A stretch of DNA of 64,000 nt from a virus, in the IMG/VR virus record IMGVR_UViG_3300031707_000003, positions 47,678 to 111,677 of that record; one strand, written 5' to 3'. The notes beneath the pieces are model-generated. The model had not been told where the DNA came from and searched no databases. It saw nothing but the letters and a program-made list of their open reading frames with translations. Of the stretch, positions 38,806 through 61,245 are shown piece after piece. Position numbers and translations under genes: made by a program. The stretch's first letter is position 1, and each line of letters starts with the position of its first letter.

Positions 38806-41800
38806 ATGACCCAGCCGAGCCCCTCAGCTACCGACAAGCATCTCGCCCTTGTTGACGAGATTCGACGGATCCGCGAGTCGAAGACCGTGGCGTTCAAGCG
38901 CCCGGCGACGCGGTTGAAGACCACCATCGCCGGCCTCAATGGTCAACCGCAACCGTTGACCCTCCGCTATTACCAGGTCGTCGGGACGTTCAACCTCCTC
39001 AAGCTCCGCCGGATGCTTCTTGGGGATGGGACCGGGCTAGGCAAGTGCGAGGTGGGGAGCACCCTTCTTCTGACGTCCCAGGGGCTTCGCCCGATCGAAA
39101 CCCTCGCCCCGGCCTCCCTTGACCGTGCGTCATCCCCTGATGAGGGGTTCTACGACATGGATCACCAGGTCGACGTCTGGACCGGCCGGAGGATGGCAAA
39201 AGTCTCCCGCTTCTACTGGAGCGGGAAGAAGCCCACCCTCAAGGTGACCACTCGCAACGGGTACCAGTTCGAAGGGACGCTCGTTCACCCGATGCGAGTT
39301 CGCGATGAGGGCGGGGAAGCCTGGAAGGAACTCCGGTGGGTCCGCGAAGGAGACTTCCTTTGTGTGGGCCGTTCAGAGGCTCCGTTCCCCCAAGAAGATC
39401 CGAGAATTACGTTTGACGCCGCAGCCCTCTCCACCAACGCGAAGACGTATACCTACCCGACGATCTTGACGCCCGAGCTGGCGACGCTCCTCGGGTACAT
39501 TGTGGCCGAGGGTCATAGCCGTAAGTATGGAGTAACCGTTACGCAGTTTCGCGATCTGAACCCGGAGCCCCACGAGGAGATTCGGGATCTCTTTCAGTCC
39601 GCCTTCGGGTGGGAGGGCAACTACCATGACCTCGAACGTGACACCGCCATCAAGGTACCGAGCATCGGCATCCGTGAATTTCTCAGGACTCTTGGCATTG
39701 GGGACGAGCTTTCCCGTACCAAGTCGGTTCCCGATGTTGTTTTACGGGGAACCAGAGAATCGGTGCGCGGATTTCTCTCGGCGCTGATCGAGTCGGAAGG
39801 GTCCGTGGCCGACGGTGGCGGTGTTGAGTTCTCTTCATCCTCCGAAACCCTCGCGCGGCAAACCCAGCTTCTTTTGCTTCGCTTTGGGGTTATTTCGACC
39901 CTCTCCGAAAAACACATCAAGGGAAATGACCACACATACTGGCGGCTGACCTTCTTTGGCGATGACGCCCGACTCTACCAGGAACGAGTCGGGTTTCGAT
40001 CAAGCCGTAAGGGAGATGACTTGAGGGCGAGTCTCGCAAAGACTTCGAACCCAAACAAGGATCTCGTACCTCACGCACAAGAGCCCGTTCGAGCCTTGAA
40101 AGCGCGGATCCTCGACGTCTCATCGCGGTCGGGCGCCAACGATCGCCGCAAGGGGTCCGGGATCAAACAGTTCGGCGAGACCTTTCAAAGTACCCTCAAA
40201 CACATCCTTTTGGGCCATCGAAACCCAAGCTACTCTTGGCTCGTCAAGCTCTTGGGGGTCTCCCACGAACTTGGGTTGTCGACGTCCCCCGAGTACGAGG
40301 CGGTTCTCGCGCTGGTGCGCGACCGGCACTTCTACGACCCCGTGGTGAAGATCGAACCCGGCGAAGCCGAGGTCATGGACATCGAGGTCGATGACCCCGA
40401 GCACTGCTACATCGCCAACGGACTTCTGAGCCACAACACGGTCCAGGTCATCGCCTTCCTCTGCTACCTCTGGGAGTCCGAGCACGACAGCAAGGCGATC
40501 GTGGTCTCACCGAAGAGCGCTCTCCGTCAGTGGAAGAGCGAGATTGAGCGGTTCTCTACGGGTATCAAGTCGTTCGTTGTCTCCGGTAGCGCCGAGGAAC
40601 GGAAAGCCATCTACGAGGCATTCCTGGAGCACCCCACGGGGCCGGATGCCGAAAAGGCTGTGCTCATCTTGAACTACCACATCCTCGTCCGGGATTGGAC
40701 AGCCGGCAGTGTGAAGCCTCGCCTCCCGGACGGACAACCGGACCCCAAGCAGCCTGCCTCGCCTGGCCTGCTCGATGGGATGTTGGCGAAGCTGAAGAAC
40801 CCGATCGTCATCTACGATGAGTGCACGGCCTTCAAGAACCCGAGCACGAAAACCTGGCAGGTATGCCGGTTCCTCGCGGACAGGGCGAATCGCGTCTATG
40901 GGCTCACGGCGACGTTGCTCAAGAACAAGCTCATGGAAGGCTTCTCGATCTACAAGGTCATCGTTCCGGAGGTCTTCAAGTCGAAGACCGCGTTCATGAA
41001 CGACTACTGCGTCACGAAGCTCCAATCGATCGCCGGGAGCAACCGGAAGATACCGATTGTCGTCGGGTACAAGAACCTCGCGGCCTTCCGCGCCAAGATC
41101 GATCTCTACTTCCTCGGGAGGCCCAAGCATGTCGTCTCGGATGAGCTGCCCAAGCTCATCACGAAGGAGGTCACGTGTGTGATGTCCAAGGCCGAGGACG
41201 CCAAGTACAAGCAGGCGCTCTCCGGTGTCCTCGAAATGGGGGACGGGGAGGTCAAGGATTACGAGGAACACAAGGCGTTCGTTGCGCTCACGTACTGTCA
41301 GCAGGTTGTTGACTCTCTGAGCCTTCTGAAGTTCAAAGACGGGGACGTCATCGAGGACTTCCTCTTCGACGAATCGGTCAAAGTCGATGGACTGGGCTCG
41401 AAGGAGCAGGCCCTCGTAGACCTCATCACGGAGGAGTTCGACGAGGAGAAAGTCATCGTCTACACGCGCTTTGCGAGCCTCGTTCCACGTCTTCGGGAGA
41501 TCCTGAAAAACGAGGGGATCAAGAGCGTCGAAATCAGCGGCAACGTGAAAGACACGGCCACGAACCCACGTCGGCAGCAGGCTCAGGAGGCGTTTCAGAA
41601 CCAGGAGAGCGACGTCCGGGTCATCATCATCACCGACGCCGGATCGGAGGCCATCAACCTCCAGGCAGCGTCAGCCATCATCTTCTACGACTCGCCGTGG
41701 TCCTGGGGGAACTACGTACAGCTCCTCGGCCGTCCGATCCGCATCGGGTCTCCGCACCAACACGTTGTGGCCGTGCACATCGTGGCGGAGCGGCCTCGGG

Positions 41801-41970
41801 ACGCCAAAAAAGACCGCAAGACCATCGACCACTACACGATCGAACTCCTTCAGCGGAAAAAGGACCTTGTGGATAAGGTGTTGGGAGAATCGGCCGTGGG
41901 CGCCCTCGACTTCGGGACGGGGAAGAGCTTCCAGGCGGAGCTGATCGAGAACCTTCGGACCGGGAAATGA
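38806..41970 (+). CDS. SNF2-like DNA helicase interrupted by an intein
   Basis: A 1054-residue precursor; removing the intein (residues 81-544) leaves a 590-residue SF2 helicase. Exteins join to GDGTGLGK|TVQVIAF, a Walker A motif. Other SNF2-type motifs are IVIYDECTAFKNPST (DExx box), VYGLTATLLKN (motif III), EKVIVYTRFASLV and QLLGRPIRIGS (motif VI). The ATG at 38806 is preferred over an in-frame GTG nine bases upstream. A CCGGTGTA element ends 12 bases before the ATG. It opens the replication module and probably remodels DNA or forks; substrate unknown. Confidence 0.8.
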   Translation: MTQPSPSATDKHLALVDEIRRIRESKTVAFKRPATRLKTTIAGLNGQPQPLTLRYYQVVGTFNLLKLRRMLLGDGTGLGKCEVGSTLLLTSQGLRPIETLAPASLDRASSPDEGFYDMDHQVDVWTGRRMAKVSRFYWSGKKPTLKVTTRNGYQFEGTLVHPMRVRDEGGEAWKELRWVREGDFLCVGRSEAPFPQEDPRITFDAAALSTNAKTYTYPTILTPELATLLGYIVAEGHSRKYGVTVTQFRDLNPEPHEEIRDLFQSAFGWEGNYHDLERDTAIKVPSIGIREFLRTLGIGDELSRTKSVPDVVLRGTRESVRGFLSALIESEGSVADGGGVEFSSSSETLARQTQLLLLRFGVISTLSEKHIKGNDHTYWRLTFFGDDARLYQERVGFRSSRKGDDLRASLAKTSNPNKDLVPHAQEPVRALKARILDVSSRSGANDRRKGSGIKQFGETFQSTLKHILLGHRNPSYSWLVKLLGVSHELGLSTSPEYEAVLALVRDRHFYDPVVKIEPGEAEVMDIEVDDPEHCYIANGLLSHNTVQVIAFLCYLWESEHDSKAIVVSPKSALRQWKSEIERFSTGIKSFVVSGSAEERKAIYEAFLEHPTGPDAEKAVLILNYHILVRDWTAGSVKPRLPDGQPDPKQPASPGLLDGMLAKLKNPIVIYDECTAFKNPSTKTWQVCRFLADRANRVYGLTATLLKNKLMEGFSIYKVIVPEVFKSKTAFMNDYCVTKLQSIAGSNRKIPIVVGYKNLAAFRAKIDLYFLGRPKHVVSDELPKLITKEVTCVMSKAEDAKYKQALSGVLEMGDGEVKDYEEHKAFVALTYCQQVVDSLSLLKFKDGDVIEDFLFDESVKVDGLGSKEQALVDLITEEFDEEKVIVYTRFASLVPRLREILKNEGIKSVEISGNVKDTATNPRRQQAQEAFQNQESDVRVIIITDAGSEAINLQAASAIIFYDSPWSWGNYVQLLGRPIRIGSPHQHVVAVHIVAERPRDAKKDRKTIDHYTIELLQRKKDLVDKVLGESAVGALDFGTGKSFQAELIENLRTGK
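39046..40437 (+). other. Intein with LAGLIDADG homing endonuclease
   Basis: A 464-residue intein coding segment inside the helicase gene. It begins at a Cys (CEVGSTLLLTSQGLRPIETL) directly after the Walker A Lys and ends CYIANGLLSHN before a Thr, so splice residues Cys1, His-Asn at the end and Thr+1 are all present. Two LAGLIDADG-type helices are visible (LLGYIVAEG and FLSALIESEG), indicating an embedded homing endonuclease that may still be active. Insertion exactly at the P-loop is a common conserved-site choice of inteins. Confidence 0.9.
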
Positions 41971-42948: not shown

Positions 42949-44414
42949 TGAAGCGCCTCCTTCGGTCGGTCATTGACATCGACGGGCAGTTCACCCAAGA
43001 GAACCTCGTTCTCAACTTCCAGAAGCTCCTTGGGGCCCAAGTCGATTGGGGTCGCCCTGACGACACCAAGGTCTTCACGTACATCCACGGGTACTTCATC
43101 CAGCACCTCGAAGTCCCTTCGGCCACCACGCTCTTCGACCACTTCGAGCGCCTCAAGGACGTCGAGTGCATCGAGCGCATCAAGGACTACAAAGCAGTCC
43201 AGGGGTACATCCGGACGAACTTTACGCACCTCCTGCAAACCATCCTGGAGGAGCAGAACAAAATCAAGGCCGTCGCGCTCTTGAAGGAAGCGCACGAGAT
43301 CATCGCTCGTGGCTTGGAGATCGACGGCGAGAAGAAGTCCGGTGTTCGGGACGGCCTCATCCACTTCGCGCAGAAGGCGAACGACCTCATCGTCCCGGAC
43401 TTCAACGCCCGTATTCGAGGCGATATCCGTCTCGACGGGCAGGCGATGATCGATGAGTACCAGTTGGCCGAGACCAACAAGGACAAGGTCTGGGGGAAGT
43501 TCACGGGGATCAACGAGATCGACAAGAACTGTCGTGGCGCCAAGAAGGGCGAGCTATGGGTTCACGCAGCTTACCCAGGTGAGTTGAAGACCACATTCGC
43601 TGCAAACTGGTGCTACAACCTCGTCACCCGCTACAAAACGAACGTCTGTTACGTTTCGTTGGAGATGCCCTATGAGCAGGTGCGTCGCCAAGTCTACACG
43701 ATTCACACGTCGAACATGCTCTGGCATCTCCAGGGGATCAAGGCTCTCGACTACCGCAAGATCCGCGACGGCGAGCTGAGCCCGGAGGAGAAGAAGTTCT
43801 ACCAGGAGCGGGTCGTCGAAGACTTCTCGAACAGCCCTCACTACACGAAGTTCGAGGTCGTCACTCCCGACAAGGAGTGGAACATGAACGACATCCGGAT
43901 GGAGCTGGAGCTGCTTCACAAGCAGTTCGAGGTCGGCTTCGTTGTCATCGACCACGGCCAGTGGGTTGAGGCTCGCAAGGGCAAGAAGAACAGCAACTAC
44001 GTTGTCGAGCTGAACTCCGTCGTTCGTGACGCCAAGCGGCTCGCTCTGCACTTCAACCACCGAGAGGGGATCCCCGTCCTTCTCCTGTGGCAGATCAACC
44101 GCGAGGGTAAGGACGACGCCGACAAGAGCGATGGCATCTACAAGGCCAAAGCGCTCACGTACGCAAACGAGGTCGAGAAGACGGCAGACGTCATCACCAC
44201 GACGTACCTCAACGACGAACACCGCAAGAACGGCACGACCAAGTTCACGAACATCAAGAACCGGGACAACCCCCTCTTCGAGCCCTTTCTCGCACGCATC
44301 GACTTCGCTTGCCGCCGCATCCGCAACATTGGCGTCGACGAGAAGCAGAACAGCGTGATGATGAATGATGAGGTTGACGCGGTCATGGACAGCATGGATC
44401 TCTGCCTGGTCTAA
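42948..44414 (+). CDS. DnaB-like replicative helicase
   Basis: A 488-residue RecA-fold helicase. The N-terminal 170 residues are helical. The core begins GKFTGINEIDKNC and has a P-loop region GELWVHAAYPGELKT with Lys214-Thr215; the Gly that normally precedes the Lys is Leu213. Other motifs are CYVSLEMPYEQVRRQ (H1a-like), FVVIDHGQWVEA (Walker B-like) and VLLLWQINREG (H3-like). It is coupled to the loader-like gene upstream and the zinc-finger primase gene downstream, with a strong ggaggggagg Shine-Dalgarno. Probably unwinds DNA at the phage fork. Confidence 0.75.
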   Translation: MKRLLRSVIDIDGQFTQENLVLNFQKLLGAQVDWGRPDDTKVFTYIHGYFIQHLEVPSATTLFDHFERLKDVECIERIKDYKAVQGYIRTNFTHLLQTILEEQNKIKAVALLKEAHEIIARGLEIDGEKKSGVRDGLIHFAQKANDLIVPDFNARIRGDIRLDGQAMIDEYQLAETNKDKVWGKFTGINEIDKNCRGAKKGELWVHAAYPGELKTTFAANWCYNLVTRYKTNVCYVSLEMPYEQVRRQVYTIHTSNMLWHLQGIKALDYRKIRDGELSPEEKKFYQERVVEDFSNSPHYTKFEVVTPDKEWNMNDIRMELELLHKQFEVGFVVIDHGQWVEARKGKKNSNYVVELNSVVRDAKRLALHFNHREGIPVLLLWQINREGKDDADKSDGIYKAKALTYANEVEKTADVITTTYLNDEHRKNGTTKFTNIKNRDNPLFEPFLARIDFACRRIRNIGVDEKQNSVMMNDEVDAVMDSMDLCLV

Positions 44415-45046
44415 TGGCTCGCGACTTCACCAAGGAAGCCCGGCAAGAGCACAACAATCGGGACGCGTCCCACCGCTGGATCCAGGCGCGTATCGAGGTC
44501 ATCCGTAAGGGCGTCACGGCCCAGGACATCCTCCGTCGAAACGGGATCAAGCTACGCGGGAATGGTGACCGGGAGGAGCAGTTCGCTTGCCCCTTTCATG
44601 GACGGGATAACAAGCCGTCGGCCCGCGTGTACCCGGAAACTGTCCGGGGGCCGTCCCATGTCTGGTGCTTCGTCTGTCAGGAGCGTTGGGACGTCATCAG
44701 CCTTTGGAAGAAGTTCGGCAGTAGCGACGCCAAGTTCACCCAAACACTTGGCGAAATCGAGAGGGCATTCGGCATCCTTCCGCCGGAGCGCCCCCCGGCG
44801 GACACGGGTGAAATCGGTGACGAAGAAGATCCCGTGCTCCTCGAAGTCGACATGCTTTTTCATGTCTGCGAGAGTCGCCTCAAAGACGGTCGAAATTCCT
44901 TCGACATGAAGAGCTACCTCACACTCGGCATGATCCTCGATCGCCTCTACTTCCAGGTCGAAGAGGGTATCGTGAAACCCCCGAAGGCCATCGAGATTCT
45001 CAAGACGGTCCTCAACAAGATCGGCGAGAAAGTCCGTGCCGCGTAG
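44414..45046 (+). CDS. Primase-type CHC2 zinc-finger protein without TOPRIM domain
   Basis: A 210-residue protein with the DnaG-like CHC2 zinc site Cys59-x2-His62 ... Cys85-x2-Cys88 (FACPFHGRDNKPSARVYP, VWCFVCQERWDVISLW), which in primases recognises template DNA. After residue 115 only an acidic helical region follows; the catalytic TOPRIM domain is absent. It overlaps the DnaB-like gene by one base. Either a separate protein supplies primase activity or this is an accessory recognition subunit. Confidence 0.7.
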   Translation: MARDFTKEARQEHNNRDASHRWIQARIEVIRKGVTAQDILRRNGIKLRGNGDREEQFACPFHGRDNKPSARVYPETVRGPSHVWCFVCQERWDVISLWKKFGSSDAKFTQTLGEIERAFGILPPERPPADTGEIGDEEDPVLLEVDMLFHVCESRLKDGRNSFDMKSYLTLGMILDRLYFQVEEGIVKPPKAIEILKTVLNKIGEKVRAA

Positions 45047-45476
45047 GGTCAAGGTCCAGACGAAGGAGATGGGCCTCGTCGACCTCTACCTCATCTACGA
45101 GACCGGTGGCCTGTGGGAAACCGAGTGGCAACCCCTTCAAGGGGCGAAAGGGTTCGCGGACCAGTTCGCCACCCTCGACAAAGAGCAGATGGAGCAAGCC
45201 TATTTTGGCTGGACAAGGCCCCTCGTCGCGGCCCTAGGGCCGTCCGGTGAGGGGATGCTGCTCACGGTCCCGACCGCGACGCGGCAGTGCCAGGCGCGGT
45301 CCTCGTGCCCTTTTTACCGACCTCTGGATTGTAGCTCAACAAGCAAGAAAATGCCTTGGTGTTACGTGCCCGAAGGGTTTACGGACACCGAACGAAGTCT
45401 TGCTGCTGAGTGCATCCGATTGTGGCGCGAAGGGGTGTACATCATCGTCGTGAGGGAGCCCACAGATGCCCGTTGA
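45036..45476 (+). CDS. Cys-containing hypothetical protein in replication module
   Basis: A 146-residue protein with a GTG start overlapping the upstream gene by 11 bases; an internal ATG at 45069 is a weaker choice. Residues about 84-110 contain four Cys (QCQARSSCPFYRPLDC ... WCYVPEG), a spacing that could hold a metal or Fe-S cluster. The end (RLWREGVYIIVVRE) is strand-like. Its 3' end overlaps the DNA polymerase gene by 11 bases. Function unknown; location suggests a replication accessory role. Confidence 0.5.
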   Translation: MPRRVKVQTKEMGLVDLYLIYETGGLWETEWQPLQGAKGFADQFATLDKEQMEQAYFGWTRPLVAALGPSGEGMLLTVPTATRQCQARSSCPFYRPLDCSSTSKKMPWCYVPEGFTDTERSLAAECIRLWREGVYIIVVREPTDAR

Positions 45477-48400
45477 AGAGATCGATGACGAACTCCTGGC
45501 CGCTCTCAACGAGTCCCAAGCGTCAACACCCCAGCCTTCTGCGTCCCCTGCTCTGTCGGTCGAGGACGAGGGGATCGATGAAGTCTCTCCTCCGGTAGCC
45601 GCTCGTGCGGTCTCTGCGCCAGCTACTTCGTTGGAAGAGGAGGGGATCGACGAGGTTCCTCCTCCCGCTGTAGCGCTGGCCCCACCACCCCAAGCGCGTC
45701 CCGCAGATGATGACGACTTTGGGGATACCTTGGAGACGTTCGTTCAGACGAGCGGGCTCCAACAGGAACGGGAGGTCCCGGACATCCAAAAGCCGTGGAT
45801 GAAATTCCACAAGTTCATCCGATGTCAAACGGTTGCAGAGGTCGAAGAGATCGTTGATGCGGCCTTGGCTCACGGTCGTTGTGCACTTGACTTGGAGACC
45901 CAGGGTCTCGACAACCGCATCGTCTGGGATGAGCACGGCAATCCCAGTACCGTCCACCAGATCGTCGGCTTCTGTATCTCGGTTGACGGTGTGACCGGTT
46001 ACTACATCCCGATTCGGCACAAGAATTTCGACGGGCCCGACCTCAACGTTCCCGTCGCAGGTGTCGAGGCCGCTATCAAGCGTCTTTGCCTTGCGGCTCA
46101 GCCTCAGGGGACGGCCGAATCAATCGCTAAGGACCCTCTCTCTTTCCCTCAGTTCACGATCCCACCTCAGGTCGTGATCTACTTCTGGAACGGACAGTTC
46201 GATCAGGAGTTCCTTTTCCCCATCACAGGGATCGATTGGTGGCACCCGGATTCCTGGGAGGATGGGATGCTCGCCAACTTCACCCGGTACGCAGCCGACA
46301 AGGCGTTGGGTCTCAAGTACAAGGCCCCCGAGGTACTCCGGGATCCTGAGGGCAACGTCTACGAGATGACCGAGCTGAAGGATCTGTTCATCCGTGGGAT
46401 GGACATCGCGTTCGGCAACCTCGCCCCTGACGAACCAGGGGTTATCAAGTACGGTGCCTCCGACGCAATCTGCACGTACCTCTTGTGCGATGACCCTCGC
46501 CCTCACGAGAAGAAGAGGGAGAACCTCATCAAGCTCGTGAAGACAAAGCACGCCTTCACATACCGTTTGGAGAAGCAGGTCGCTCAGGCTGTCCGGGGGA
46601 TGGAGCGCCATCGCGTTAAGGTTCATCGGGGTCGCATCAAGGAGCTGTACGACGAGCATGTCCTAGAACGTGACTCGATTCTCCAACGCATCCAGGAATT
46701 CGGGGCAACGAAGGGGTGGCACGGGCTCGATCCCAACTCGTCCAAGCAGCTCTCGGACTTCTTGTTCACGGATGGGCCCAACTGCTGCAACATCACGATA
46801 ACGGCGACGAAGGACTACCCAGGCGGCAAGCCCCCCAAGAACGAGAAGTCCGGCCAGTACAAAACGGACGCCGACACGCTCGAAGGGATGGTTGCTGAGA
46901 ACGCACATGCCCCGCCCGTCCTCAAGTGGGTCGTCGAATTCCGAGGTGTTGAGAAAATCATCGGAACGTACCTCACGCACCTCCTCAACAATCCTGACAA
47001 GAACGACGAGCTGCGTTTCTCGTTCAAGCAGACGGGAGCGGGCACGGGGCGATTTTCAGCTCCGGCGAACGCGGATAAGCTCGATCACGGGTTCGGAGGG
47101 ATCCCGATCCATGGGATCCCCGGTGAGTCGTCGCTCCGAAAGACGTTCATCGCGCGGCCTGGCTACACGATCGCCAAGTGCGACTATGCAGGCCAGGAGC
47201 TTCGCATTGCGGCGAACGTCTCAGGGGAGCCCGTGTGGCTGAGGGAGTTCCTCGAAGGTGATGGGGACCTCCACTCGATCACGGCGAGGGCCTTCTACGG
47301 CACGCAAGACATCACCAAAGACCAGCGTAAGGCCGGAAAGATAGCCAACTTCGCGCTCATCTACGGTGGCGGTCCGCAAGCCATCATGCGAGCGACCGGA
47401 TGCGATAAGGTTGAAGGGTCGCGCCGAAAGCAGGCCTTCGACAAGTCCGTCCCAACCTTCGCGGGATGGATCAAGAAGCAGCACGCGGCCGTCAAGAGGG
47501 ATGAGGGTGTGACCACGGCGTTCGGACGCTGGCTTGCTGTTCCCGATGCCAACATCAACACTGGCGTTCCTGAGCATGACCGCATGGTTCAAGCTGCGTG
47601 TGAGCGGTACTCGACGAACTACCCCATCCAGGGGGCGGGCGCCGACATCATGAAGATCAGCATGGTCTTGCTCCACAAGGAATTCTTCAAGCGGGGCTGG
47701 CTCCGCACGGGCGGGGACGATTCCGTTCGCATGCTCATGACGGTGCATGACGAAATTGTCTTCGAGATCAAGCATGACCGTGTAGCCGAGGCCATCCCTC
47801 TCATCGTGAAGGTGATGGAGTCCCCGACGAAGCTCGCCAAGCCCTCGTGGCGAGTTCCTCTCATCGTCGAACCCCTCATCGGACCGAACTGGGGTTCAGG
47901 CTACAAGTGTGAGCATGCCAAGCCGGGTCATGGGCCCAAGCCAAACGAGATCCTCGTCCAAGGCTTCATCTACGGTAGGATCCGTGTGGTCGATCTGGGC
48001 AAGGACAAGCCCGAGGAGTCCGATGGGGAGGTCGAAGACTTCCGCGATGAGAAGGGGAAGAAGATTGGCATCCGTATTGTCGACCCCCCGTGGCTGCGGA
48101 ATGTCACTCCTGACGACCCGAACGCACCGCCGGGAGAAGCACCGCCGGAAGGAGGCTCTGAAGGAGAGCCTCCGAAGTCACCCTCCGCAACCCCTGGGCC
48201 TACCGATGCCGATTCTCCGGTTGACCTAGCGGCAGAGGGTATTCCGACGGAAGTGGCGCCCCCGGTGACCGCGCCCCCACCGGCACCCAAACATGCCTCT
48301 CCCCCCGCAGCGGCGAAGAAGAACGGGAAGAGTCGGGTCGTAACGATGAAGATTTGGCGGTTGAATGGGCTCACCGTAAAACAGGTGCGAATGGCCTGTT

Positions 48401-48561
48401 TCATGGCGCTGGAACCCAACGGTAAACTGCTCCAACTGACGGATAGTAACGGCACCGTCATCGTGGACCCGGCGTTGGGGGTGCGGATCAACCCGGAACA
48501 CCTGGTTCAAAGCCTCTTCCATCTCAACCTGGGAGACGGGGGCTTCGTCGAAGAACCCTAG
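45466..48561 (+). CDS. Family A DNA polymerase with 3'-5' exonuclease and long extensions
   Basis: A 1031-residue replicative polymerase of the Pol I family. Residues 1-110 are low-complexity acidic with two copies of an EGIDEVxPP unit. The proofreading exonuclease starts with ALDLETQGLDN (Asp142, Glu144). Polymerase motif A is DYAGQELR (Asp573), motif B RKAGKIANFALIYG (Arg621) and motif C VHDE (Asp762-Glu763), all intact. The polymerase fold ends near residue 820. About 200 further residues contain a Pro/Glu linker and a small C-terminal domain (KIWRLNGLTVKQVRMACF), not standard for the family. It overlaps the preceding gene by 11 bases. Confidence 0.9.
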   Translation: MPVEEIDDELLAALNESQASTPQPSASPALSVEDEGIDEVSPPVAARAVSAPATSLEEEGIDEVPPPAVALAPPPQARPADDDDFGDTLETFVQTSGLQQEREVPDIQKPWMKFHKFIRCQTVAEVEEIVDAALAHGRCALDLETQGLDNRIVWDEHGNPSTVHQIVGFCISVDGVTGYYIPIRHKNFDGPDLNVPVAGVEAAIKRLCLAAQPQGTAESIAKDPLSFPQFTIPPQVVIYFWNGQFDQEFLFPITGIDWWHPDSWEDGMLANFTRYAADKALGLKYKAPEVLRDPEGNVYEMTELKDLFIRGMDIAFGNLAPDEPGVIKYGASDAICTYLLCDDPRPHEKKRENLIKLVKTKHAFTYRLEKQVAQAVRGMERHRVKVHRGRIKELYDEHVLERDSILQRIQEFGATKGWHGLDPNSSKQLSDFLFTDGPNCCNITITATKDYPGGKPPKNEKSGQYKTDADTLEGMVAENAHAPPVLKWVVEFRGVEKIIGTYLTHLLNNPDKNDELRFSFKQTGAGTGRFSAPANADKLDHGFGGIPIHGIPGESSLRKTFIARPGYTIAKCDYAGQELRIAANVSGEPVWLREFLEGDGDLHSITARAFYGTQDITKDQRKAGKIANFALIYGGGPQAIMRATGCDKVEGSRRKQAFDKSVPTFAGWIKKQHAAVKRDEGVTTAFGRWLAVPDANINTGVPEHDRMVQAACERYSTNYPIQGAGADIMKISMVLLHKEFFKRGWLRTGGDDSVRMLMTVHDEIVFEIKHDRVAEAIPLIVKVMESPTKLAKPSWRVPLIVEPLIGPNWGSGYKCEHAKPGHGPKPNEILVQGFIYGRIRVVDLGKDKPEESDGEVEDFRDEKGKKIGIRIVDPPWLRNVTPDDPNAPPGEAPPEGGSEGEPPKSPSATPGPTDADSPVDLAAEGIPTEVAPPVTAPPPAPKHASPPAAAKKNGKSRVVTMKIWRLNGLTVKQVRMACFMALEPNGKLLQLTDSNGTVIVDPALGVRINPEHLVQSLFHLNLGDGGFVEEP

Positions 48562-48577
48562 CCAAACCTACGGTTGA

Positions 48578-48583
48578 GGCGTA
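48578..48583 (+). promoter_or_regulatory. GGTGTA variant (ggcgta)
   Basis: One mismatch to GGTGTA, ending ten bases before the GTG at 48594, which has no Shine-Dalgarno. Same spacing as the closest perfect copies. Confidence 0.35.
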
Positions 48584-48593
48584 TCTTCAACCC

Positions 48594-49211
48594 GTGAGTT
48601 TTCGACGCCTCGACATGCTCCCTGAGTGCAACCTGAACGGTGCACCTCTGGACGTGTTTGTTGCGGAGTGCTGCCAGCGCTGCATCAATCCCGAGTGCAC
48701 CCGAAGCCAATTCGGGGGGAGCAAGTTCGATCAGAGGACGGGGACCTGGCTCCAGCGGCTCTTCACGGAAGTCCCCAAGCTTCAACCCAACGACCCGAGA
48801 TTTCAAGCGATTGCAGGTCAGAAGTTCCTCACCATCGACGCAGGCCGGACTCCCGAGGTCCGGTCCACTGTCTGGGTCGACCCTCGGGACCTTGAAACGG
48901 CGTCCGCGCAGGTCACAGCTCCGCCTGTTGTGGAGCCCACACCCTCTCTAGTTGTCGCTACAGCCGAGGCTCAGCCCGAGACTCTGGATCCCCCGGCGAC
49001 AAATACCCCACAACCTACGCCGCCTCGAAAATCCGTCCCGCGTCACATGGTTCTCGCCAACGCACCTTCACAGTCAGGCAAGATCATCCGGCCTGAGACC
49101 TCTTCCGCACCTCCGAAAGACGCGTGGGCAGGCCCTCTTGCATCTCCGGACGCGAACATTACCGTGATTAAGCCAGGGGCGACTGTGAAGCTAGGGGGCT
49201 CCGGTGTATAG
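48594..49211 (+). CDS. Hypothetical protein with N-terminal Cys cluster
   Basis: A 205-residue protein with a GTG start and no Shine-Dalgarno; a GGTGTA variant (ggcgta) ends ten bases before it. Residues 12-40 hold a Cys cluster (AECCQRCINPECTRSQFGGS) likely to bind zinc, followed by QRTGTWLQRLF. The second half is Pro/Thr/Ala-rich and probably disordered, ending in a short strand segment (ITVIKPGATVKLGGSG). A CCGGTGTA element overlaps its last codons. Function unknown. Confidence 0.55.
   Translation: MSFRRLDMLPECNLNGAPLDVFVAECCQRCINPECTRSQFGGSKFDQRTGTWLQRLFTEVPKLQPNDPRFQAIAGQKFLTIDAGRTPEVRSTVWVDPRDLETASAQVTAPPVVEPTPSLVVATAEAQPETLDPPATNTPQPTPPRKSVPRHMVLANAPSQSGKIIRPETSSAPPKDAWAGPLASPDANITVIKPGATVKLGGSGV
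49201..49208 (+). promoter_or_regulatory. CCGGTGTA element before DUF2997 gene
   Basis: CCGGTGTA overlapping the end of the preceding gene and ending 38 bases before the DUF2997-like ATG; a hairpin lies between, and this gene does have a Shine-Dalgarno. Confidence 0.45.
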
Positions 49212-49217
49212 ATCCTC

Positions 49218-49235
49218 CAGAGGGGCAGCCCTCTG
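49218..49235 (+). promoter_or_regulatory. Leader hairpin before DUF2997 gene
   Basis: A perfect seven-base-pair stem (cagaggg / ccctctg) with loop gcag, just upstream of the aaaaggaag ribosome binding site. It lacks a T-run, so it is more likely an mRNA leader structure than a terminator. Confidence 0.5.
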
Positions 49236-49246
49236 AAAAGGAAGCC

Positions 49247-49429
49247 ATGTCAGATCCGATGAAGTTCAAGGCGGTCATCAAGCAAGACGGCACCGTCGTC
49301 ACCGAAGTACTCGATCGCGGGCAGCATCTCTGCGGCGAAGTGTACAAGGTGACGAATGCCATCGGGAAGCAGCTCTCCGACGAGGAGATCGGCCCCGAGT
49401 GCGATACGGTCAACGAGATCATCACCTGA
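49247..49429 (+). CDS. DUF2997-like small protein
   Basis: A 60-residue protein with a good Shine-Dalgarno (aaaaggaag). It matches the outline of the DUF2997 family: a strand hairpin from KAVIKQDGTVVTEVLDRG, then a Cys-containing helix (HLCGEVYKVTNAIGK) and an acidic end (SDEEIGPECD). In cyanobacteria and some other genomes such genes neighbour DUF1257 (Ycf35) and Ycf46-like ATPase genes, exactly as here, which strengthens the call. Biochemical role is unknown. Confidence 0.65.
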   Translation: MSDPMKFKAVIKQDGTVVTEVLDRGQHLCGEVYKVTNAIGKQLSDEEIGPECDTVNEIIT

Positions 49430-49443
49430 GCGCCTAGGCGCTC
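49428..49443 (+). promoter_or_regulatory. Inverted repeat between DUF2997 and DUF1257 genes
   Basis: gagcgcc-ta-ggcgctc, a perfect seven-base-pair inverted repeat overlapping the DUF2997 stop codon. No T-run follows; it may affect mRNA processing or stability between the two genes. Confidence 0.5.
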
Positions 49444-49471
49444 GTCACCCGAAAGAGAAGAGGAAGACACC

Positions 49472-49798
49472 ATGTCTCACCGCGTTACCACCCAGACCGA
49501 GATCAAGGACAAGAACTTCGCCGTGCAGGCTCTCAAGTCTGCGGGCCTCTCCTACCGCGAAGTAGGCGAGCAGATCCACATCACGAGCGGGCGTCTGGCA
49601 AACGCAACGCTCGACCTCCGTTCGGGGCTGATCTCGGGTGACACCGATCACGGCCACAGCTCGGAGACCCTGGGCATGCTCCGCCAGCACTACTCGGAGG
49701 CGAAGTACCGCGCCGAGTGCCAGAAGCAGGGCATCTCGGTCGAGAGCCGCACGGTCAACAAGGAAGGGCACATCGTCCTCATGTGCTCGATGGCCTGA
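49472..49798 (+). CDS. DUF1257 (Ycf35-like) protein
   Basis: A 108-residue protein starting MSHRVTTQTEIKDKNFAVQA, the usual DUF1257 opening of MSH followed by a T-x-I-K-D motif, then ALKSAGLSYREVGEQIHITS and HYSEAKYRAECQKQG before a short strand-rich end. A good Shine-Dalgarno (agaggaag) precedes it. It lies between the DUF2997-like gene and the Ycf46-like ATPase gene and is closed by a strong terminator. No biochemical function is established for the family to my knowledge. Confidence 0.75.
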   Translation: MSHRVTTQTEIKDKNFAVQALKSAGLSYREVGEQIHITSGRLANATLDLRSGLISGDTDHGHSSETLGMLRQHYSEAKYRAECQKQGISVESRTVNKEGHIVLMCSMA

Positions 49799-49829
49799 AT
49801 CGGGCCACCTCAACTGAGGGCTAACGGGG

Positions 49830-49864
49830 CCCGCTTCTCGAAAGGGAGGCGGGTCTTCGTTTTT
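49830..49864 (+). terminator. Rho-independent terminator after DUF1257 gene
   Basis: Stem 49830-49853 (cccgcttctc / gggaggcggg, ten pairs with G-T wobbles) closed by a GAAA loop and followed by tcttcgttttt. A textbook intrinsic terminator, closing the DUF2997-DUF1257 transcript before the Ycf46-like gene. Confidence 0.85.
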
Positions 49865-49872
49865 CCGGTGTA
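49865..49872 (+). promoter_or_regulatory. CCGGTGTA element before Ycf46-like gene
   Basis: CCGGTGTA begins immediately after the terminator T-run and ends 27 bases before the ATG, as expected for a promoter restarting transcription. Confidence 0.6.
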
Positions 49873-49899
49873 CTAACCATCTAGGACCCACAACCCAAA

Positions 49900-51471
49900 A
49901 TGAACGCCGACCTCCTCTTCCACCTCCGCTCCCTCTCCCGGATGATCTACTTCGTCACCGAGGAAGAGGATCGTTTCCTTCTCAAGCTGAAGGACACCCT
50001 CAAGAGGTTCGCCCCTCGTACGTACGTGTACAACGCAGCGTTCGGCTTGGTCGGTCTCGACAACCTGACGCGGGACTGGGGAACGCGAGCCCACGCGGTT
50101 GCGCCGGATCTCCAGGGCATCCACGACGCGCTCATCCACATCTACAAGGATGACCCGAAGGACGAACAGAACTTCTACATCATCACGGACCCTGAGCGGT
50201 GGCTGAAGGACGATCATGTCCAGCGGCGCATCCTCAACATCGTCCACCAGCTTCACAACGACATCCGCACGATCAAGATCATGATCTTCGTCGGCCAGCG
50301 GAAGTACATCCCGGAGAAGCTCTCCCGCTACATCGAAGTCGTGCATGACACCGGCCTCGGTACCGAAGAGATCGGGACCATCGTTCAGCAGGCGTGCGAG
50401 CACCTTCAGATCCAGCCGCCGGAAGACGCGGAAGAGCTGTTCCGTGGGCTCACGAGCTACGAAGTCGATGCGGCCATCGCCCAGTCCATCGTGAAGACGA
50501 AGAAGGACAAGAGCGCTCCCAAGCGGATCGATCCAGCCTACATCGCCGAATTCAGGCGTCGGCAGCTCCGTAAGACGGATCTCGTCCAGCACATCGACAC
50601 GTCGGCCTTCACGTTCGACAAGATCGGGGGAGCCAATCGCTTCAAGGCATGGGCTCGCAAAATCAAGGCGGCCTGGACTCCAGAGGGCCGCGAGGCGGGC
50701 TTGGAGCACCCTAAGGGCGTCCTCAACGTCGGCGTGTGGGGGACGGGCAAGTCACTCTCCGTGAAGTGCCTCGGCTCTGAGTGGGGACTCCCTGTCGTCT
50801 CGTTGGAGATGGGGCGCCTTCGGTCGTCAGGTGTCGGCGAGTCCGAGGCCAACGTCTACCGTGCGCTTCGGATCATCGAGTCGGCGGCGCCCTGCATCGT
50901 GTGGATCGATGAAGGGGAGAAGTCTCTTTCGGGTGGGCAGTCGTCCGCTCAATCGGACGCCGGCACAACCAACCGGACGATCGGCATCTTCTCGACGTGG
51001 CTCCAGGAGACCAAGGCGAAGGTCACACTCGCCATCACCGCGAACACGCTCAAGACCCTTCCGGTCGAGTTCGTCAACCGCATGGATGAGCGGTTCTTCT
51101 TCGATCTTCCGTCGGAGGAGGAGCGGATCGACATCTTGAAGATCCACCTGAAGCAGCGCAACCTCGATCCTATGAAGTTCGACTTGGCCATGTTGGCGGA
51201 CAAGGCCCGGAGCATGGTCGGTCGCGAGATCGAGCAGTGCATCAAGGCGGCCCTCGTCGAGTCGTTCGACCAGAAGAAGAAGGGGCTCGATCAGGACATC
51301 TTCGCGGTCGAGTTGGCCCGCAAGCCGCGCATCGTGAAGACGATGGTGGACGAGATCAAGGAAGTCCTCGATTGGGTCGGTTACGACCCTGACGTGGACG
51401 ACGGCATCCGTGCACGCTTCGCTTCGGATCCCAACCGCAAGGGTGGGGCCATGAAACTCGTCGAGGGGTGA
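49900..51471 (+). CDS. Ycf46-like AAA+ ATPase
   Basis: A 523-residue protein matching Ycf46 in length and layout: about 240 residues of a degenerate N-terminal domain, then an AAA+ module with Walker A GVWGTGKS (Lys284), Walker B IVWIDEGEK (Asp337-Glu338), sensor 1 TLAITANT and arginine-finger region EFVNRMDERFFFDLPSEEER. The pore-type region follows the GVGESEANV second-region motif. It is transcribed after a terminator from a CCGGTGTA element 27 bases upstream of the ATG. It probably remodels a protein or nucleic-acid complex with the adjacent DUF1257 and DUF2997 products. Confidence 0.8.
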   Translation: MNADLLFHLRSLSRMIYFVTEEEDRFLLKLKDTLKRFAPRTYVYNAAFGLVGLDNLTRDWGTRAHAVAPDLQGIHDALIHIYKDDPKDEQNFYIITDPERWLKDDHVQRRILNIVHQLHNDIRTIKIMIFVGQRKYIPEKLSRYIEVVHDTGLGTEEIGTIVQQACEHLQIQPPEDAEELFRGLTSYEVDAAIAQSIVKTKKDKSAPKRIDPAYIAEFRRRQLRKTDLVQHIDTSAFTFDKIGGANRFKAWARKIKAAWTPEGREAGLEHPKGVLNVGVWGTGKSLSVKCLGSEWGLPVVSLEMGRLRSSGVGESEANVYRALRIIESAAPCIVWIDEGEKSLSGGQSSAQSDAGTTNRTIGIFSTWLQETKAKVTLAITANTLKTLPVEFVNRMDERFFFDLPSEEERIDILKIHLKQRNLDPMKFDLAMLADKARSMVGREIEQCIKAALVESFDQKKKGLDQDIFAVELARKPRIVKTMVDEIKEVLDWVGYDPDVDDGIRARFASDPNRKGGAMKLVEG

Positions 51472-51472
51472 C

Positions 51473-51829
51473 GTGGGGCTGATCAACACACGGAGGAAGC
51501 TCCTCGTAGGGAAGGTCAACGAGAGCCTCTTCCGTGATTTATTCCGCGCTACCAAAGCCGCTGACTTCGCGGAGGTCGAGCGCTTGAAAGCCACCCTCAA
51601 GAAGTCGCAGGAGGAGTGCCTCCACCCGTCGACGGAGCATAGGACTGCGAAGAGCATCCCCGGCGGCCCCACGAAGCGGTACAAGAAGGGGGACTGCCTT
51701 TCGTGGTGCTTCCGGTGTGGTAAGATCCTGGAGCACAACGGCAAGGAGGTTGGCGAGGAGCTACCCCTTACGGTGTGGGAACGCCTCCTCGATGGCGAAT
51801 CCCCCTTCGATGAGGCTGGTGATGTCTGA
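51473..51829 (+). CDS. Zinc-ribbon hypothetical protein
   Basis: A 118-residue protein with a GTG start one base after the upstream stop. The first half is basic helix (DFAEVERLKATLKKSQEE); the second has a likely zinc ribbon ECLHPS ... DCLSWCFRCGK. Its 3' end overlaps the next gene by eight bases. No family is recognised; such small zinc ribbons often mediate nucleic-acid or protein contacts. Confidence 0.55.
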   Translation: MGLINTRRKLLVGKVNESLFRDLFRATKAADFAEVERLKATLKKSQEECLHPSTEHRTAKSIPGGPTKRYKKGDCLSWCFRCGKILEHNGKEVGEELPLTVWERLLDGESPFDEAGDV

Positions 51830-52994
51830 CAAGCTCGCCAAGGTTGACCCTCAGGTCAGTTCGCTTGCCCGGCCTGAGTCGGGCCCTCTCCTTGCGGCTC
51901 GTCAGAACATCAAGCGGCAACCGGACGCTCAAGCCATCTTCGCGAAGTCCCGCGAGGAAAACTGGAACGCCGACCAACTCGCCGAGGCTCTCCAACCCGT
52001 TCTCGAACTGCACGTCGAAGGGGACTCGGCGGCTATTGCTCAGGTTGCCAGGTACTTGGCGGACGAGTACTTCCAGATCGGCGACGGCATCCTCATCATC
52101 TCGACCGAGACCGGTAAGGCCATCGCCAAGATCACGGAGGATGACATCTGGGTTCCACCCCCGGTCCCCCGCGAGGGTGGTGGCATGGTGCAGCCTCTCC
52201 CACGGCTTCGACCGGAGCTGGAGGGACTCCTCGTCGAGTGGGTGTTCAACCGTGGTCGGGAGCAAGCCCTGGCTGCCACGCTGGCGCGTCGGTCACACCA
52301 AACGGCCCTTCTCCGGGAGGAGGGGGACCGAAGGCTCCTGCCGGTCACCAAGGCGGGCAGGAGGCAAATCGTGGACGCCATCAGTGACGCCCTTCCCGAG
52401 CTTCTCCCTGGGCAATGCCAAGGGCTCAGTCGGGAGTTCCTCTCCCACTTCGAGTTCCGGCAAGACGACCCAGAGGACTTGAAGCCTTTGCTGCGGTGCG
52501 TCGGACTCTCGAAATCGCTCATCCCCCTTCAAGACCCGCGTGGTCTCAACCTTCGCCACGATCACTTCACGGCCGTTACCGCCCGCATTGCCTCCCAGTG
52601 GACACGCGAGATCGCCCGCAGCGTGGCCGTCTTCGCTCGGCAAGAGCTGCAACCCCGTCCCATGGCGTACCGCGATCTCAAGCCTGAGAACGTGCAAGGC
52701 GCGTTCTGGACAGGGGAGCCCAATACAGTCGAGCTGTTCCACAAGACCTCTCCCGGAGTGAGCGCACTCCCCGTCGATGGGGCTCCAGCAACGGGGTTTT
52801 CAGGCATCGTGGGGGCCATCGTCATCGACCCGGCTTCGTACAAGTGCTCAACCCGAGAGTTTCACGACCGGTGGGAGATCATGGCGAAGTTCGAGTACAC
52901 GGTCTGGATCGACTGGGCCAAGGTGCGCTCGCTCGTCATCGACGACGTTCCCATGTCGGGGCTGTCTGTCGAGGTTCTCGATCGCGCGAGATAG
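51822..52994 (+). CDS. Hypothetical protein, 390 residues
   Basis: The ATG at 51822, with gagg six bases upstream, is the best start; an in-frame ATG at 51810 is an alternative. The protein is mixed helix and strand with DQLAEALQPVLELHVEGDSA near the N-terminus, a charged middle (LREEGDRRLLPVTKAGRRQI) and a beta-rich C-terminal third (FSGIVGAIVIDPASYKCS, FEYTVWIDWAKVRSLVIDD). No nucleotide-binding or catalytic motif is visible. Overlap with the zinc-ribbon gene suggests co-expression. Confidence 0.5.
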   Translation: MSDKLAKVDPQVSSLARPESGPLLAARQNIKRQPDAQAIFAKSREENWNADQLAEALQPVLELHVEGDSAAIAQVARYLADEYFQIGDGILIISTETGKAIAKITEDDIWVPPPVPREGGGMVQPLPRLRPELEGLLVEWVFNRGREQALAATLARRSHQTALLREEGDRRLLPVTKAGRRQIVDAISDALPELLPGQCQGLSREFLSHFEFRQDDPEDLKPLLRCVGLSKSLIPLQDPRGLNLRHDHFTAVTARIASQWTREIARSVAVFARQELQPRPMAYRDLKPENVQGAFWTGEPNTVELFHKTSPGVSALPVDGAPATGFSGIVGAIVIDPASYKCSTREFHDRWEIMAKFEYTVWIDWAKVRSLVIDDVPMSGLSVEVLDRAR

Positions 52995-53027
52995 AGCTTT
53001 GATAGGCCTACTTGGGGTGTCCGTCAC

Positions 53028-53282
53028 ATGGGTTACTACTCGTTCATCGTCCAAGCTCCTGGGGAGGTAATCCTCGAAAAGCAAAGGGTAATCCTCGATC
53101 AAGGTATGAACGCTTTCAATGCGCTCATCGACGATCTCGACGTGTTTCTCGTACTCCTCAAGAAAGAGGGGGTGTCCGTCACGAAGGTGAACCGGCTCGA
53201 CATGCACGAACCCGTCACACCTCAACCGGAGATCCTGGAGGCTCAACAGGCGTATGTCCTACCTACACGGGGAGATGATTGA
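53028..53282 (+). CDS. Small hypothetical protein
   Basis: An 84-residue protein with ggggtg eight bases before the ATG. It starts MGYYSFIVQAPGEVI and contains a helix of alternating hydrophobic residues (NALIDDLDVFLVLLKKEGVS). No family recognised. Its end overlaps the next, winged-helix-like gene. Confidence 0.45.
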   Translation: MGYYSFIVQAPGEVILEKQRVILDQGMNAFNALIDDLDVFLVLLKKEGVSVTKVNRLDMHEPVTPQPEILEAQQAYVLPTRGDD

Positions 53283-53538
53283 TCGTGAGGCGGCCCGTAA
53301 GCTTGCCCTGGACTACTTCGCCCGTCACGAGAACCGCGTCATTCTCGTGGGCCAGGTATCTCTGCACATCGCCAACGGTTACGGCCTGAACAAGACCGAA
53401 CGCCTCCTCGAAGAGATGGTCCGCGAAGGCATCATCCAGAGGGCATCCCAAGCCGAGCAGAAGGCCGCCGGGTATCGTGATGGCTACGTCTTGACGTCGC
53501 TCGGTGTAGAAGTAATACGTGGGCGTCCGCCAGCGTAA
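53254..53538 (+). CDS. Winged-helix-like small protein
   Basis: A 94-residue protein if read from the first ATG, or 87 from the ATG at 53275, where homologous-looking sequence begins (IDREAARKLALDYF). The order helix, VILVGQVSLHIANGYG, LNKTERLLEEMVREGIIQRA, then a strand GYVLTSLGVEVI is that of a winged helix-turn-helix, so a DNA-binding regulator is likely. It overlaps neighbours on both sides by 20-29 bases. Targets cannot be inferred. Confidence 0.5.
   Translation: MSYLHGEMIDREAARKLALDYFARHENRVILVGQVSLHIANGYGLNKTERLLEEMVREGIIQRASQAEQKAAGYRDGYVLTSLGVEVIRGRPPA
53501..53508 (+). promoter_or_regulatory. TCGGTGTA element
   Basis: TCGGTGTA ending ten bases before the GTG at 53519; no Shine-Dalgarno between. 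It lies inside the end of the winged-helix gene. Confidence 0.45.
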
Positions 53539-53773
53539 GCAAACACTCCTCGTTGTTCTGAAGGCACACACGTTGAGTGGTAGGTTGTCGGCTGAACAAG
53601 CGGTCACCTTCGAGGCGATGTACCGGCGTGCTCGCACCCCCGAGGAACAAGATCAGGTCACCAAGGTCGTTCACGACATGATGGAGGGTTGGCGGACAGG
53701 GACCGACCGGTTCTCCCGGCTCCGGCAGGCCATGAACGATCTCGATGAACTAGCGGACGACGATGGGGAATAA
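53519..53773 (+). CDS. Small hypothetical protein
   Basis: An 84-residue protein read from a GTG ten bases after a CGGTGTA element, without a Shine-Dalgarno. It is mostly charged helix (TPEEQDQVTKVVHDMMEG, RQAMNDLDELADDDGE). No family recognised. It overlaps the winged-helix gene by 20 bases and is followed 24 bases later by a tagged protein. Confidence 0.4.
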   Translation: MGVRQRKQTLLVVLKAHTLSGRLSAEQAVTFEAMYRRARTPEEQDQVTKVVHDMMEGWRTGTDRFSRLRQAMNDLDELADDDGE

Positions 53774-53797
53774 AGTCCCTTTCAACGGGCACCTGCG

Positions 53798-54463
53798 ATG
53801 AGTTACTCGTACGATCGCCGTGCAGCCACGGATCCAAAGAAGCTCTTGGTGAAGATCGTCCATGACGCCGAAAAAGACCTGAAGGAATTCCTCGCGTCTC
53901 TCCCGCCCGAGGCTGAACCATACGGTCGGGTCAACACCAATTTCGAGTCACCGCCTCCAAGGGGCGGGTACGGGCCGTATGAGACAGGATCGATCTCCTT
54001 CCTTGCAGGCCTCAAAGGTGGGGGACGACCTGTCGACGTTGAATTTTCAGCGAGTGTTGTGGTGAACCTCACGGATGGAGTCGTCGGGATCGGTGCGAAG
54101 TCCCGCAACCACACCCTCGAAGGCTTGTTGAGCCAAGGGACGATCAAAGACGCTCCTGCTCGGCTCAAGAAGGTGCTCACCTTTTTCAAGGAATCGCTGG
54201 CGACAGAAGCCCGTCGCATCCAACAGCAGACGAAGGTGCAGACGAAGGAACCGGAGTCGGAAGAAGCCTGGTCCGTCGTCACCTTGGGAAAGGGCCATAG
54301 CTACGCCACCGAGGTTGACGTCTTCACCTCGAAGTCCAAAGCCGAGCAAGAGGCGAAAGACCGTGGGGATTGCTACGTCGTGAAAGGGACTCAGATGTGG
54401 AACGAACCGCTGGGGCAGGTCGAGGAGCACGATCGCAACGTCCCGTCCAAGTTCTTCCCCTAA
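53798..54463 (+). CDS. Protein with YSYDRR N-terminal tag, unknown function
   Basis: A 221-residue protein whose N-terminus MSYSYDRRAATDPKKLLVK carries the same tag as two small proteins about 18 kb upstream. Residues about 35-115 contain Gly/Pro-rich then strand-rich sequence (VDVEFSASVVVNLTDGVVGI), followed by a basic helix (ARLKKVLTFFKESLATEAR) and a C-terminal segment with TQMWNEPLGQVEEHDRN. No catalytic motif recognised. It sits just upstream of the nucleotide-metabolism genes. Confidence 0.5.
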   Translation: MSYSYDRRAATDPKKLLVKIVHDAEKDLKEFLASLPPEAEPYGRVNTNFESPPPRGGYGPYETGSISFLAGLKGGGRPVDVEFSASVVVNLTDGVVGIGAKSRNHTLEGLLSQGTIKDAPARLKKVLTFFKESLATEARRIQQQTKVQTKEPESEEAWSVVTLGKGHSYATEVDVFTSKSKAEQEAKDRGDCYVVKGTQMWNEPLGQVEEHDRNVPSKFFP

Positions 54464-61216: not shown

Positions 61217-61245
61217 GGCTGTAGTACGGGGGAACCTCCACAGCC
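61217..61245 (+). promoter_or_regulatory. Inverted repeat before clpX
   Basis: ggctgt and acagcc arms around a 17-base G-then-C-rich loop, lying in the 88-base gap after the zincin gene and ending inside the CCGGTGTA element. No T-run is present, so it is not an obvious terminator. Confidence 0.35.

Follow-up and report, generated by a model that had tools for sequence, protein, structure and literature searches.

The genes considered here lie in a window of 64,000 nucleotides (nt), covering positions 47678-111677 of the IMG/VR virus record IMGVR_UViG_3300031707_000003 (111,677 bases; the record may be a fragment). They code for a DUF2997-like protein, a DUF1257 (Ycf35)-like protein and an AAA+ ATPase of the Ycf46 type, and these three open reading frames are real and lie where a preliminary description, made from the sequence alone, had placed them (Table 1). 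A search of IMG/VR with the ATPase recovered 13 viral loci that are 55-67% identical and lie on contigs of 84-363 kb, and a search with the DUF1257-like protein added contigs of 252, 66 and 529 kb; as several of these contigs exceed 200 kb, we refer to the group as jumbo-like. The order DNA polymerase A, a protein of about 200 amino acids (aa) with four cysteines, DUF2997, DUF1257, ATPase and a protein of about 400 aa is kept in all 13 relatives, and the three genes, as had been proposed, form a conserved unit within this phage group.

Table 1. Features of the triad and its flanks, in window positions
Feature	Positions	Strand	Basis and remarks
205-aa protein, no known family, C12, C27, C30, C35	48594..49211	+	directly 5' of triad; 13/13 relatives; alignment
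CCGGTGTA motif	49201..49208	+	5' of DUF2997, overlaps last codons of upstream gene; GGTGTA in 10/11 genomes
Leader hairpin CAGAGGG/CCCTCTG	49218..49235	+	shuffles, repeat scan; not conserved
DUF2997-like protein, 60 aa, invariant C29	49247..49429	+	orthologues, profile-profile comparison, alignment
Perfect 16-bp palindrome GAGCGCCTAGGCGCTC	49428..49443	.	repeat scan; not conserved
DUF1257 (Ycf35)-like protein, 108 aa	49472..49798	+	sub-threshold Pfam match, orthologues, profile-profile comparison
Terminator-like hairpin, 14 pairs, then CGTTTTT	49826..49857	+	shuffles; equivalent gap hairpin in 10/11 genomes
CCGGTGTA motif	49865..49872	+	5' of ATPase; GGTGTA here in 11/11 genomes
Ycf46-type AAA+ ATPase, 523 aa	49900..51471	+	Pfam, PHROG, alignment, tree
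N-terminal domain, predicted degenerate AAA+ module without Walker A	49900..50607	+	AlphaFold2, PDB fold search
Walker A, GVWGTGKS	50731..50754	+	alignment
Pore-loop-1 position, SGVG against the usual S-hydrophobic-V-G	50827..50838	+	alignment
Walker B, IVWIDE	50896..50913	+	alignment
Second region of homology, NRMDE, arginine kept	51076..51090	+	alignment
390-aa protein, function unknown	51822..52994	+	3' of ATPase in 13/13 relatives

The two small proteins were placed through their relatives and by profile-profile comparison, and at the level of the family the assignments of the preliminary description stood up to the profile searches. The DUF1257-like protein of the window matches PF06868 with E=0.0045 and 17.6 bits, below the gathering cut-off of 22.2 bits; the same model matches 8 of the 11 phage orthologues (best E, 2.9e-4), and hhalign against plasmid proteins annotated as DUF1257 gives E=4e-8 with a probability of 95% over 104 columns, the alignment starting at MSH. 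These comparisons indicate a protein homologous to DUF1257 and not a Pfam-level member. A search of phage records with its single sequence gave no matches, and profiles later picked up the family in cultured phages. For the DUF2997-like protein, a scan with PF11211 returned no match even at E<=1, so that its gathering cut-off is not reached; this model matches two of the 11 phage orthologues (best E, 1.1e-4), and hhalign against plasmid proteins annotated as DUF2997 gives E=7e-6 with a probability of 84%. Crossed hhalign controls, pairing DUF1257 with DUF2997 profiles, were negative. The two families were searched domain by domain, because whole-protein iterated profiles cross-contaminate through natural fusions.

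The DUF2997 family has an invariant cysteine, present in 50/50 sequences from cells, plasmids and phages, including 11/11 from phages. Its usual setting is GxxGxxC; in the jumbo-like phages the glycines of this motif are substituted and the cysteine is kept. The protein encoded directly upstream has four cysteines that are invariant in an alignment across 11 genomes, with the spacing C-x14-C-x2-C-x4-C, and a proline-rich tail. Pfam and PHROG scans of this protein returned no matches; the cysteines form a putative Zn or iron-sulfur (Fe-S) site, with a spacing that may be somewhat like that of the WhiB-type Fe-S proteins.

Signature motifs and N-terminal domain agree in marking the ATPase as one of the Ycf46 type, as the preliminary description had held. 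Its Pfam AAA match (3.6e-18) spans residues 275-402, and it matches PHROG 8638 over nearly its full length (E=6e-82), an entry labelled as of unknown function that makes no mention of the partners. The active AAA+ module occupies residues ~264-466. Comparison with other members of the family showed that: 1) the active-site residues are intact, with the Walker A motif, the Walker B motif (hhhhDE..K), the sensor 1 asparagine and the second-region arginine all aligned. 2) The N-terminal domain of the window protein aligns with the N-terminal domains of cellular members. 3) The motif RKGRFDE, which is typical of the family and not known to be required, is replaced in the jumbo-like clade by NRMDE with a two-residue deletion, and we treat the NRMDE-bearing ATPases as a divergent subclade. 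4) At the pore position, 14 of the 16 jumbo-group ATPases scored have Gly, Asn or Thr and the other two have Leu; the residue here is mostly hydrophobic in cellular members. An AlphaFold2 model of residues 1-236, built from a 19-sequence alignment, has a mean predicted local distance difference test score (pLDDT) of 87.8 and a predicted template modelling score (pTM) of 0.81, and the 50 best PDB matches listed for it are AAA+ proteins (Vps4, MgsA, proteasomal Rpt subunits, Pex1/Pex6, RuvBL) at a probability of 1.00. Since these matches are to AAA+ folds and a Walker A motif, looked for in the N-terminal half, is absent from it, we predict a second, degenerate AAA+ module here, ahead of the active one. 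Among the best viral fold matches of this domain are proteins named ycf46 in UniProt. In one relative (L014:4476-7451) the ATPase is interrupted at the Walker B motif by an intein of ~450 aa, which begins CVTGETLV and ends VTHN before a cysteine.

The closest solved relatives of the active domain are protein-remodelling classical AAA ATPases, e.g. Cdc48/p97 and Msp1. Together with Pex1/Pex6, in which a degenerate and an active AAA module likewise stand in tandem, these proteins resemble the window ATPase in the sequence of the active domain and in the fold of the N-terminal domain; they differ from it in that the window protein lacks an N-terminal domain of the ubiquitin or peroxisome type and has a first module without Walker A. 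Ycf46/Slr0374 of cyanobacteria and red-algal plastids is a two-domain ATPase as well, and identity to chromosomal and plasmid copies is ~30% over most of the length. The tree unites the 13 jumbo-like ATPases in a single clade (support 100), whose stem is long, at 2.41 changes per column, and which falls outside every cellular group sampled, a position to be read with caution on account of long-branch effects. A recent acquisition of the ATPase from cyanobacteria was considered and, with that same caution, is ruled out by this placement. Besides its stem, the phage clade is set apart from Ycf46/Slr0374 by the second-region deletion, by a Walker A motif of the form GxWGxGKS and by the mostly polar or small pore residue.

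In cells, the small partners recur with the ATPase far beyond cyanobacteria. Among 80 cellular ATPase loci surveyed for partners within their flanks, many of which stop at contig ends, DUF1257 is present in at least 43, DUF2997 in at least 26 and both in at least 23, and the partner-bearing loci include those of Hodarchaeota, Planctomycetota, Verrucomicrobiota, Myxococcota, Omnitrophota and Bacillota. Plasmids of Pseudanabaena, Geminocystis, Bacillus licheniformis, Paenibacillus, Nostoc and Planktothrix carry a related ATPase with annotated DUF1257 and DUF2997 proteins, and a Rhodococcus plasmid carries one with an annotated DUF2997. Three natural fusions of DUF1257 to DUF2997 were recovered (L049, L081, L102), the DUF2997 part of L102 scoring above the Pfam cut-off. 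Within Myxococcota, the phylum of locus L063, 22 of 96 genomes encode DUF2997; in 21/21 of the other positive genomes it has DUF1257 and an ATPase of the Ycf46 type within ~1 kb, and 20 genomes without DUF2997 have no DUF1257 (0/20) and a Ycf46-like ATPase in 16, counts that are not independent as the genomes are related. As judged from gene content, these data show the small partners to be co-inherited with the ATPase and with each other. The cyanobacterial framing of the preliminary description was too narrow, given the many phyla, the plasmids and the cultured phages of unrelated hosts. Names that until now were orphans of cyanobacteria and plastids (Ycf46, Ycf35, DUF2997) hence behave as one unit across phyla.

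Among cultured phages, the AAA-DUF1257-DUF2997 unit is annotated as such in Rhizobium phage RHph_I4, and profiles recovered it in Rhizobium L338C, Pseudomonas PA_L9, Rhodobacter RcMenchie and Aeromonas HJ05, several of these matches lying above Pfam cut-offs, and more weakly in Agrobacterium phage JP1. Near the ATPase of Mycobacterium phage Firecracker, a profile search detected neither DUF1257 nor DUF2997. The three families stand together in RHph_I4, L338C, PA_L9, RcMenchie and HJ05 as they do in the window, but their order is ATPase, a ~210-aa protein, DUF1257 and DUF2997, whereas the window has DUF2997, DUF1257 and ATPase with the four-cysteine gene on the 5' side, and the ATPases share only ~28-33% identity. 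A phage-encoded triad is therefore not new in itself. UniProt already holds phage proteins named ycf46, and on these comparisons the triad of the window is a divergent variant of a known, uncharacterised family. Since some of the phages with the unit are cultured and genetically tractable, its function is open to direct testing. The protein between ATPase and DUF1257 in the cultured phages (L125-L128, L016, L017) is uncharacterised, ~200-240 aa long and weakly similar from phage to phage; PA_L9 and JP1 have one further gene in this stretch.

In the cyanobacterial chromosomal loci recovered, the order is small protein, ATPase, DUF1257, with DUF1257 just 3' of the ATPase in 20 loci, and this fits the operon slr0373-slr0374-slr0376, which is stress-induced and in which slr0374 encodes Ycf46 (PMC7496141). 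From the gene order we infer that slr0376 is a DUF1257 member. Inactivation of slr0374 lowers extracellular carbonic anhydrase activity (PMC7496141), and a cyanobacterial gene cluster has the composition DUF2997-ycf35-fed7 (PMC4284462). Few of the open-access papers searched mention DUF1257 or DUF2997. The stress induction and the mutant phenotype, together with the presence of the unit in bacteria of several phyla, could be taken to mean that the phage machine mimics or sequesters a Ycf46-type machine or stress pathway of the host, in takeover or counter-defence and not in the service of replication. A core gene of the phage fits better than a recent mimic with a unit that adjoins DNA polymerase A in 13/13 relatives and with an ATPase that forms its own deep clade, nested in no cellular group sampled; hence we consider host takeover unlikely.

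We favour a different reading, to which we would give an even chance: a ring-forming AAA+ ATPase, assisted by a two-protein adaptor, that carries out ATP-driven remodelling of a target in the replication phase of the phage. As in other classical AAA proteins, the ATPase subunits would assemble into a ring; the DUF1257 and DUF2997 proteins would bind each other and, as a single adaptor or cofactor, recruit or prime the substrate, which ATP hydrolysis would then remodel. A thiol- or metal-dependent step through the DUF2997 cysteine and the upstream four-cysteine protein is suggested by the universality of the former and the position of the latter just upstream, and the target would most likely be a protein assembly of the replication phase, belonging to phage or host, because the unit sits among replication and nucleotide-metabolism genes. 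In favour of such a machine one may list the order with polymerase A in the phages, the co-inheritance in Myxococcota, the fusions and the units of cultured phages, and further the degenerate N-terminal domain, the intact active-site motifs, the kinship with Cdc48/p97 and Msp1, the invariant cysteines and the Fe-S context found elsewhere. Concrete predictions on mechanism also follow from the fusions, from the invariant cysteine and from the degenerate second AAA+ domain; the preliminary description had noted neither of the last two, nor the four-cysteine protein.

Several observations weigh against this reading. An unfoldase that threads proteins is expected to have an aromatic or hydrophobic pore-loop residue, and the SGVG of the window ATPase does not provide one; a polar or small residue here speaks against simple polypeptide threading and shifts the balance from processive threading towards local remodelling. 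The model of the L081 fusion is of moderate quality (pLDDT 70.6, pTM 0.67), with a poorly ordered DUF2997 part, and does not establish docking of the two domains. Fe-S neighbours occur at a minority of DUF2997 loci (4/26 in the genome set), and the presumed link to replication is drawn solely from gene position.

In the window the triad has as neighbours a DnaB-like helicase and an SNF2 helicase, DNA polymerase A, a 5'-deoxynucleotidase and a CHC2 zinc-finger protein, and genes for thymidylate synthase, DHFR and HU are also found around it; the triad lies in a block of replication and nucleotide-metabolism genes. The polymerase and the helicases, with the CHC2 protein, would also suit an AAA+ enzyme of the clamp-loader or helicase kind that acts directly on phage DNA and whose DNA-binding subunits would be the small proteins, and genes for dnaN and helix-hairpin-helix proteins stand near some plasmid copies. 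In the L081 model the DUF1257 part is predicted to run strand, helix, four strands, helix, two strands; the strand-helix-four strands-helix order resembles the TBP-like fold, and Foldseek against the PDB gave no match to the fusion model at E<=0.001, those to TBP and RnlA being non-significant (E ~0.07-0.3). The active domain is that of a classical AAA protein whose best relatives (Cdc48/p97, Msp1, AFG2) remodel proteins and are not clamp loaders, and Pfam and PHROG scans detected no known DNA-binding domain; a role in remodelling DNA is thus distinctly improbable.

The cysteines may be accounted for in yet another manner, namely by a role of the ATPase and its adaptor in the maturation of a metal or Fe-S enzyme, whose cofactor site they would insert or activate; the cluster or sulfur would be carried by the four-cysteine protein or by the DUF2997 cysteine. 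Besides the invariant cysteines of both proteins, the cyanobacterial fed7 cluster would fit this. In Spirochaetota, Bacillota, a planctomycete and a Rhodococcus plasmid (L018, L022, L024, L031, L072, L083, L102), the ATPase or its small partners have radical-SAM-activase-like 4Fe-4S proteins (Fer4_12 where scanned) nearby, and within the genome set such Fer4_12/radical-SAM neighbours are restricted to loci with a small partner, there being none at loci with the ATPase only. An Fe-S neighbour is missing from most triad loci, the phage block has no obvious Fe-S enzyme, and the cysteines may be structural or zinc-binding, and we have little confidence in Fe-S maturation as the function. Taking the preferred motor-adaptor reading to its widest form, Ycf46, DUF1257 and DUF2997 might constitute an unrecognised thiol- or Fe-S-dependent AAA+ motor-adaptor system of bacteria, Asgard archaea, plastids, plasmids and phages, centred on the DUF2997 cysteine and kept, with a four-cysteine partner, as a core replication gene by a deep lineage of large phages; we offer this as a tentative proposal that would more probably fail than hold in full.

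Of the control elements proposed in the preliminary description, the terminator-like hairpin 5' of the ATPase and the GGTGTA core of CCGGTGTA are conserved, whereas for the leader hairpin and the palindrome no equivalents exist in the relatives, and we rejected these two as conserved regulators. The terminator-like hairpin has a z score of -4.9, none of 200 shuffles being equally stable, against 8/200 for the leader hairpin; a hairpin fills the gap between DUF1257 and ATPase in all of the 11 genomes except L014. CCGGTGTA occurs at 6 sites in the window, all on the + strand, against 1.23 expected. In the whole record, of which one strand carries 99 of the 100 genes called by a simple script, there are 7 sites, all on the coding strand and 7/7 within 60 nt 5' of a start codon, a zone comprising 5.3% of positions. 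In the group as a whole, GGTGTA mostly stands 9-13 nt ahead of the start codon (mode 10), and in the record and its relatives the motif recurs at this distance before many genes, such as those for the nucleotidase, ClpX and most of the ATPases. GGTGTA is a real, group-specific cis signal; its conservation 5' of DUF2997 may partly come from its coding for the Gly-Val-stop end of the upstream protein. The preliminary description had called it a promoter, a reading that is unproven because GGTGTA mostly lies 9-13 nt before the start and no sigma70-like hexamers are nearby: a scan of positions 44000-54000 for -35/-10 hexamers spaced by 16-18 nt found none. The T at -7 that a leaderless sigma70-like promoter would be expected to have is not enriched, and GGTGTA may be either a promoter for a phage-specific polymerase or sigma factor or a translation signal. 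The suggestion of separate control of the ATPase and the small genes is plausible, because a conserved hairpin and a conserved motif stand between them and set the ATPase apart; the need in stoichiometry or timing that the preliminary description read into it is a conjecture.

Other genes of the window and of the relatives provide some further observations. The SNF2-family helicase gene (window 38806-41970) bears a LAGLIDADG-type intein (Pfam LAGLIDADG_3, Intein_splicing), and in four relatives (L005, L009, L012, L014) the polymerase A frames are broken by long insertions or are larger than that of the window, which suggests inteins. A ClpX-like protein with a zinc finger is encoded at 61262-62557, preceded by CCGGTGTA at 61244, and a protein of the nitrilase (carbon-nitrogen hydrolase) family, which is weakly matched in PHROG by NAD synthetase, at 59531-60307. 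Finally, a phage protein of L028 (G000:C1:15563-16585) matches Pfam Volactin (PF25216) with E=6e-76, an actin family known from Haloferax (PMC10869688).

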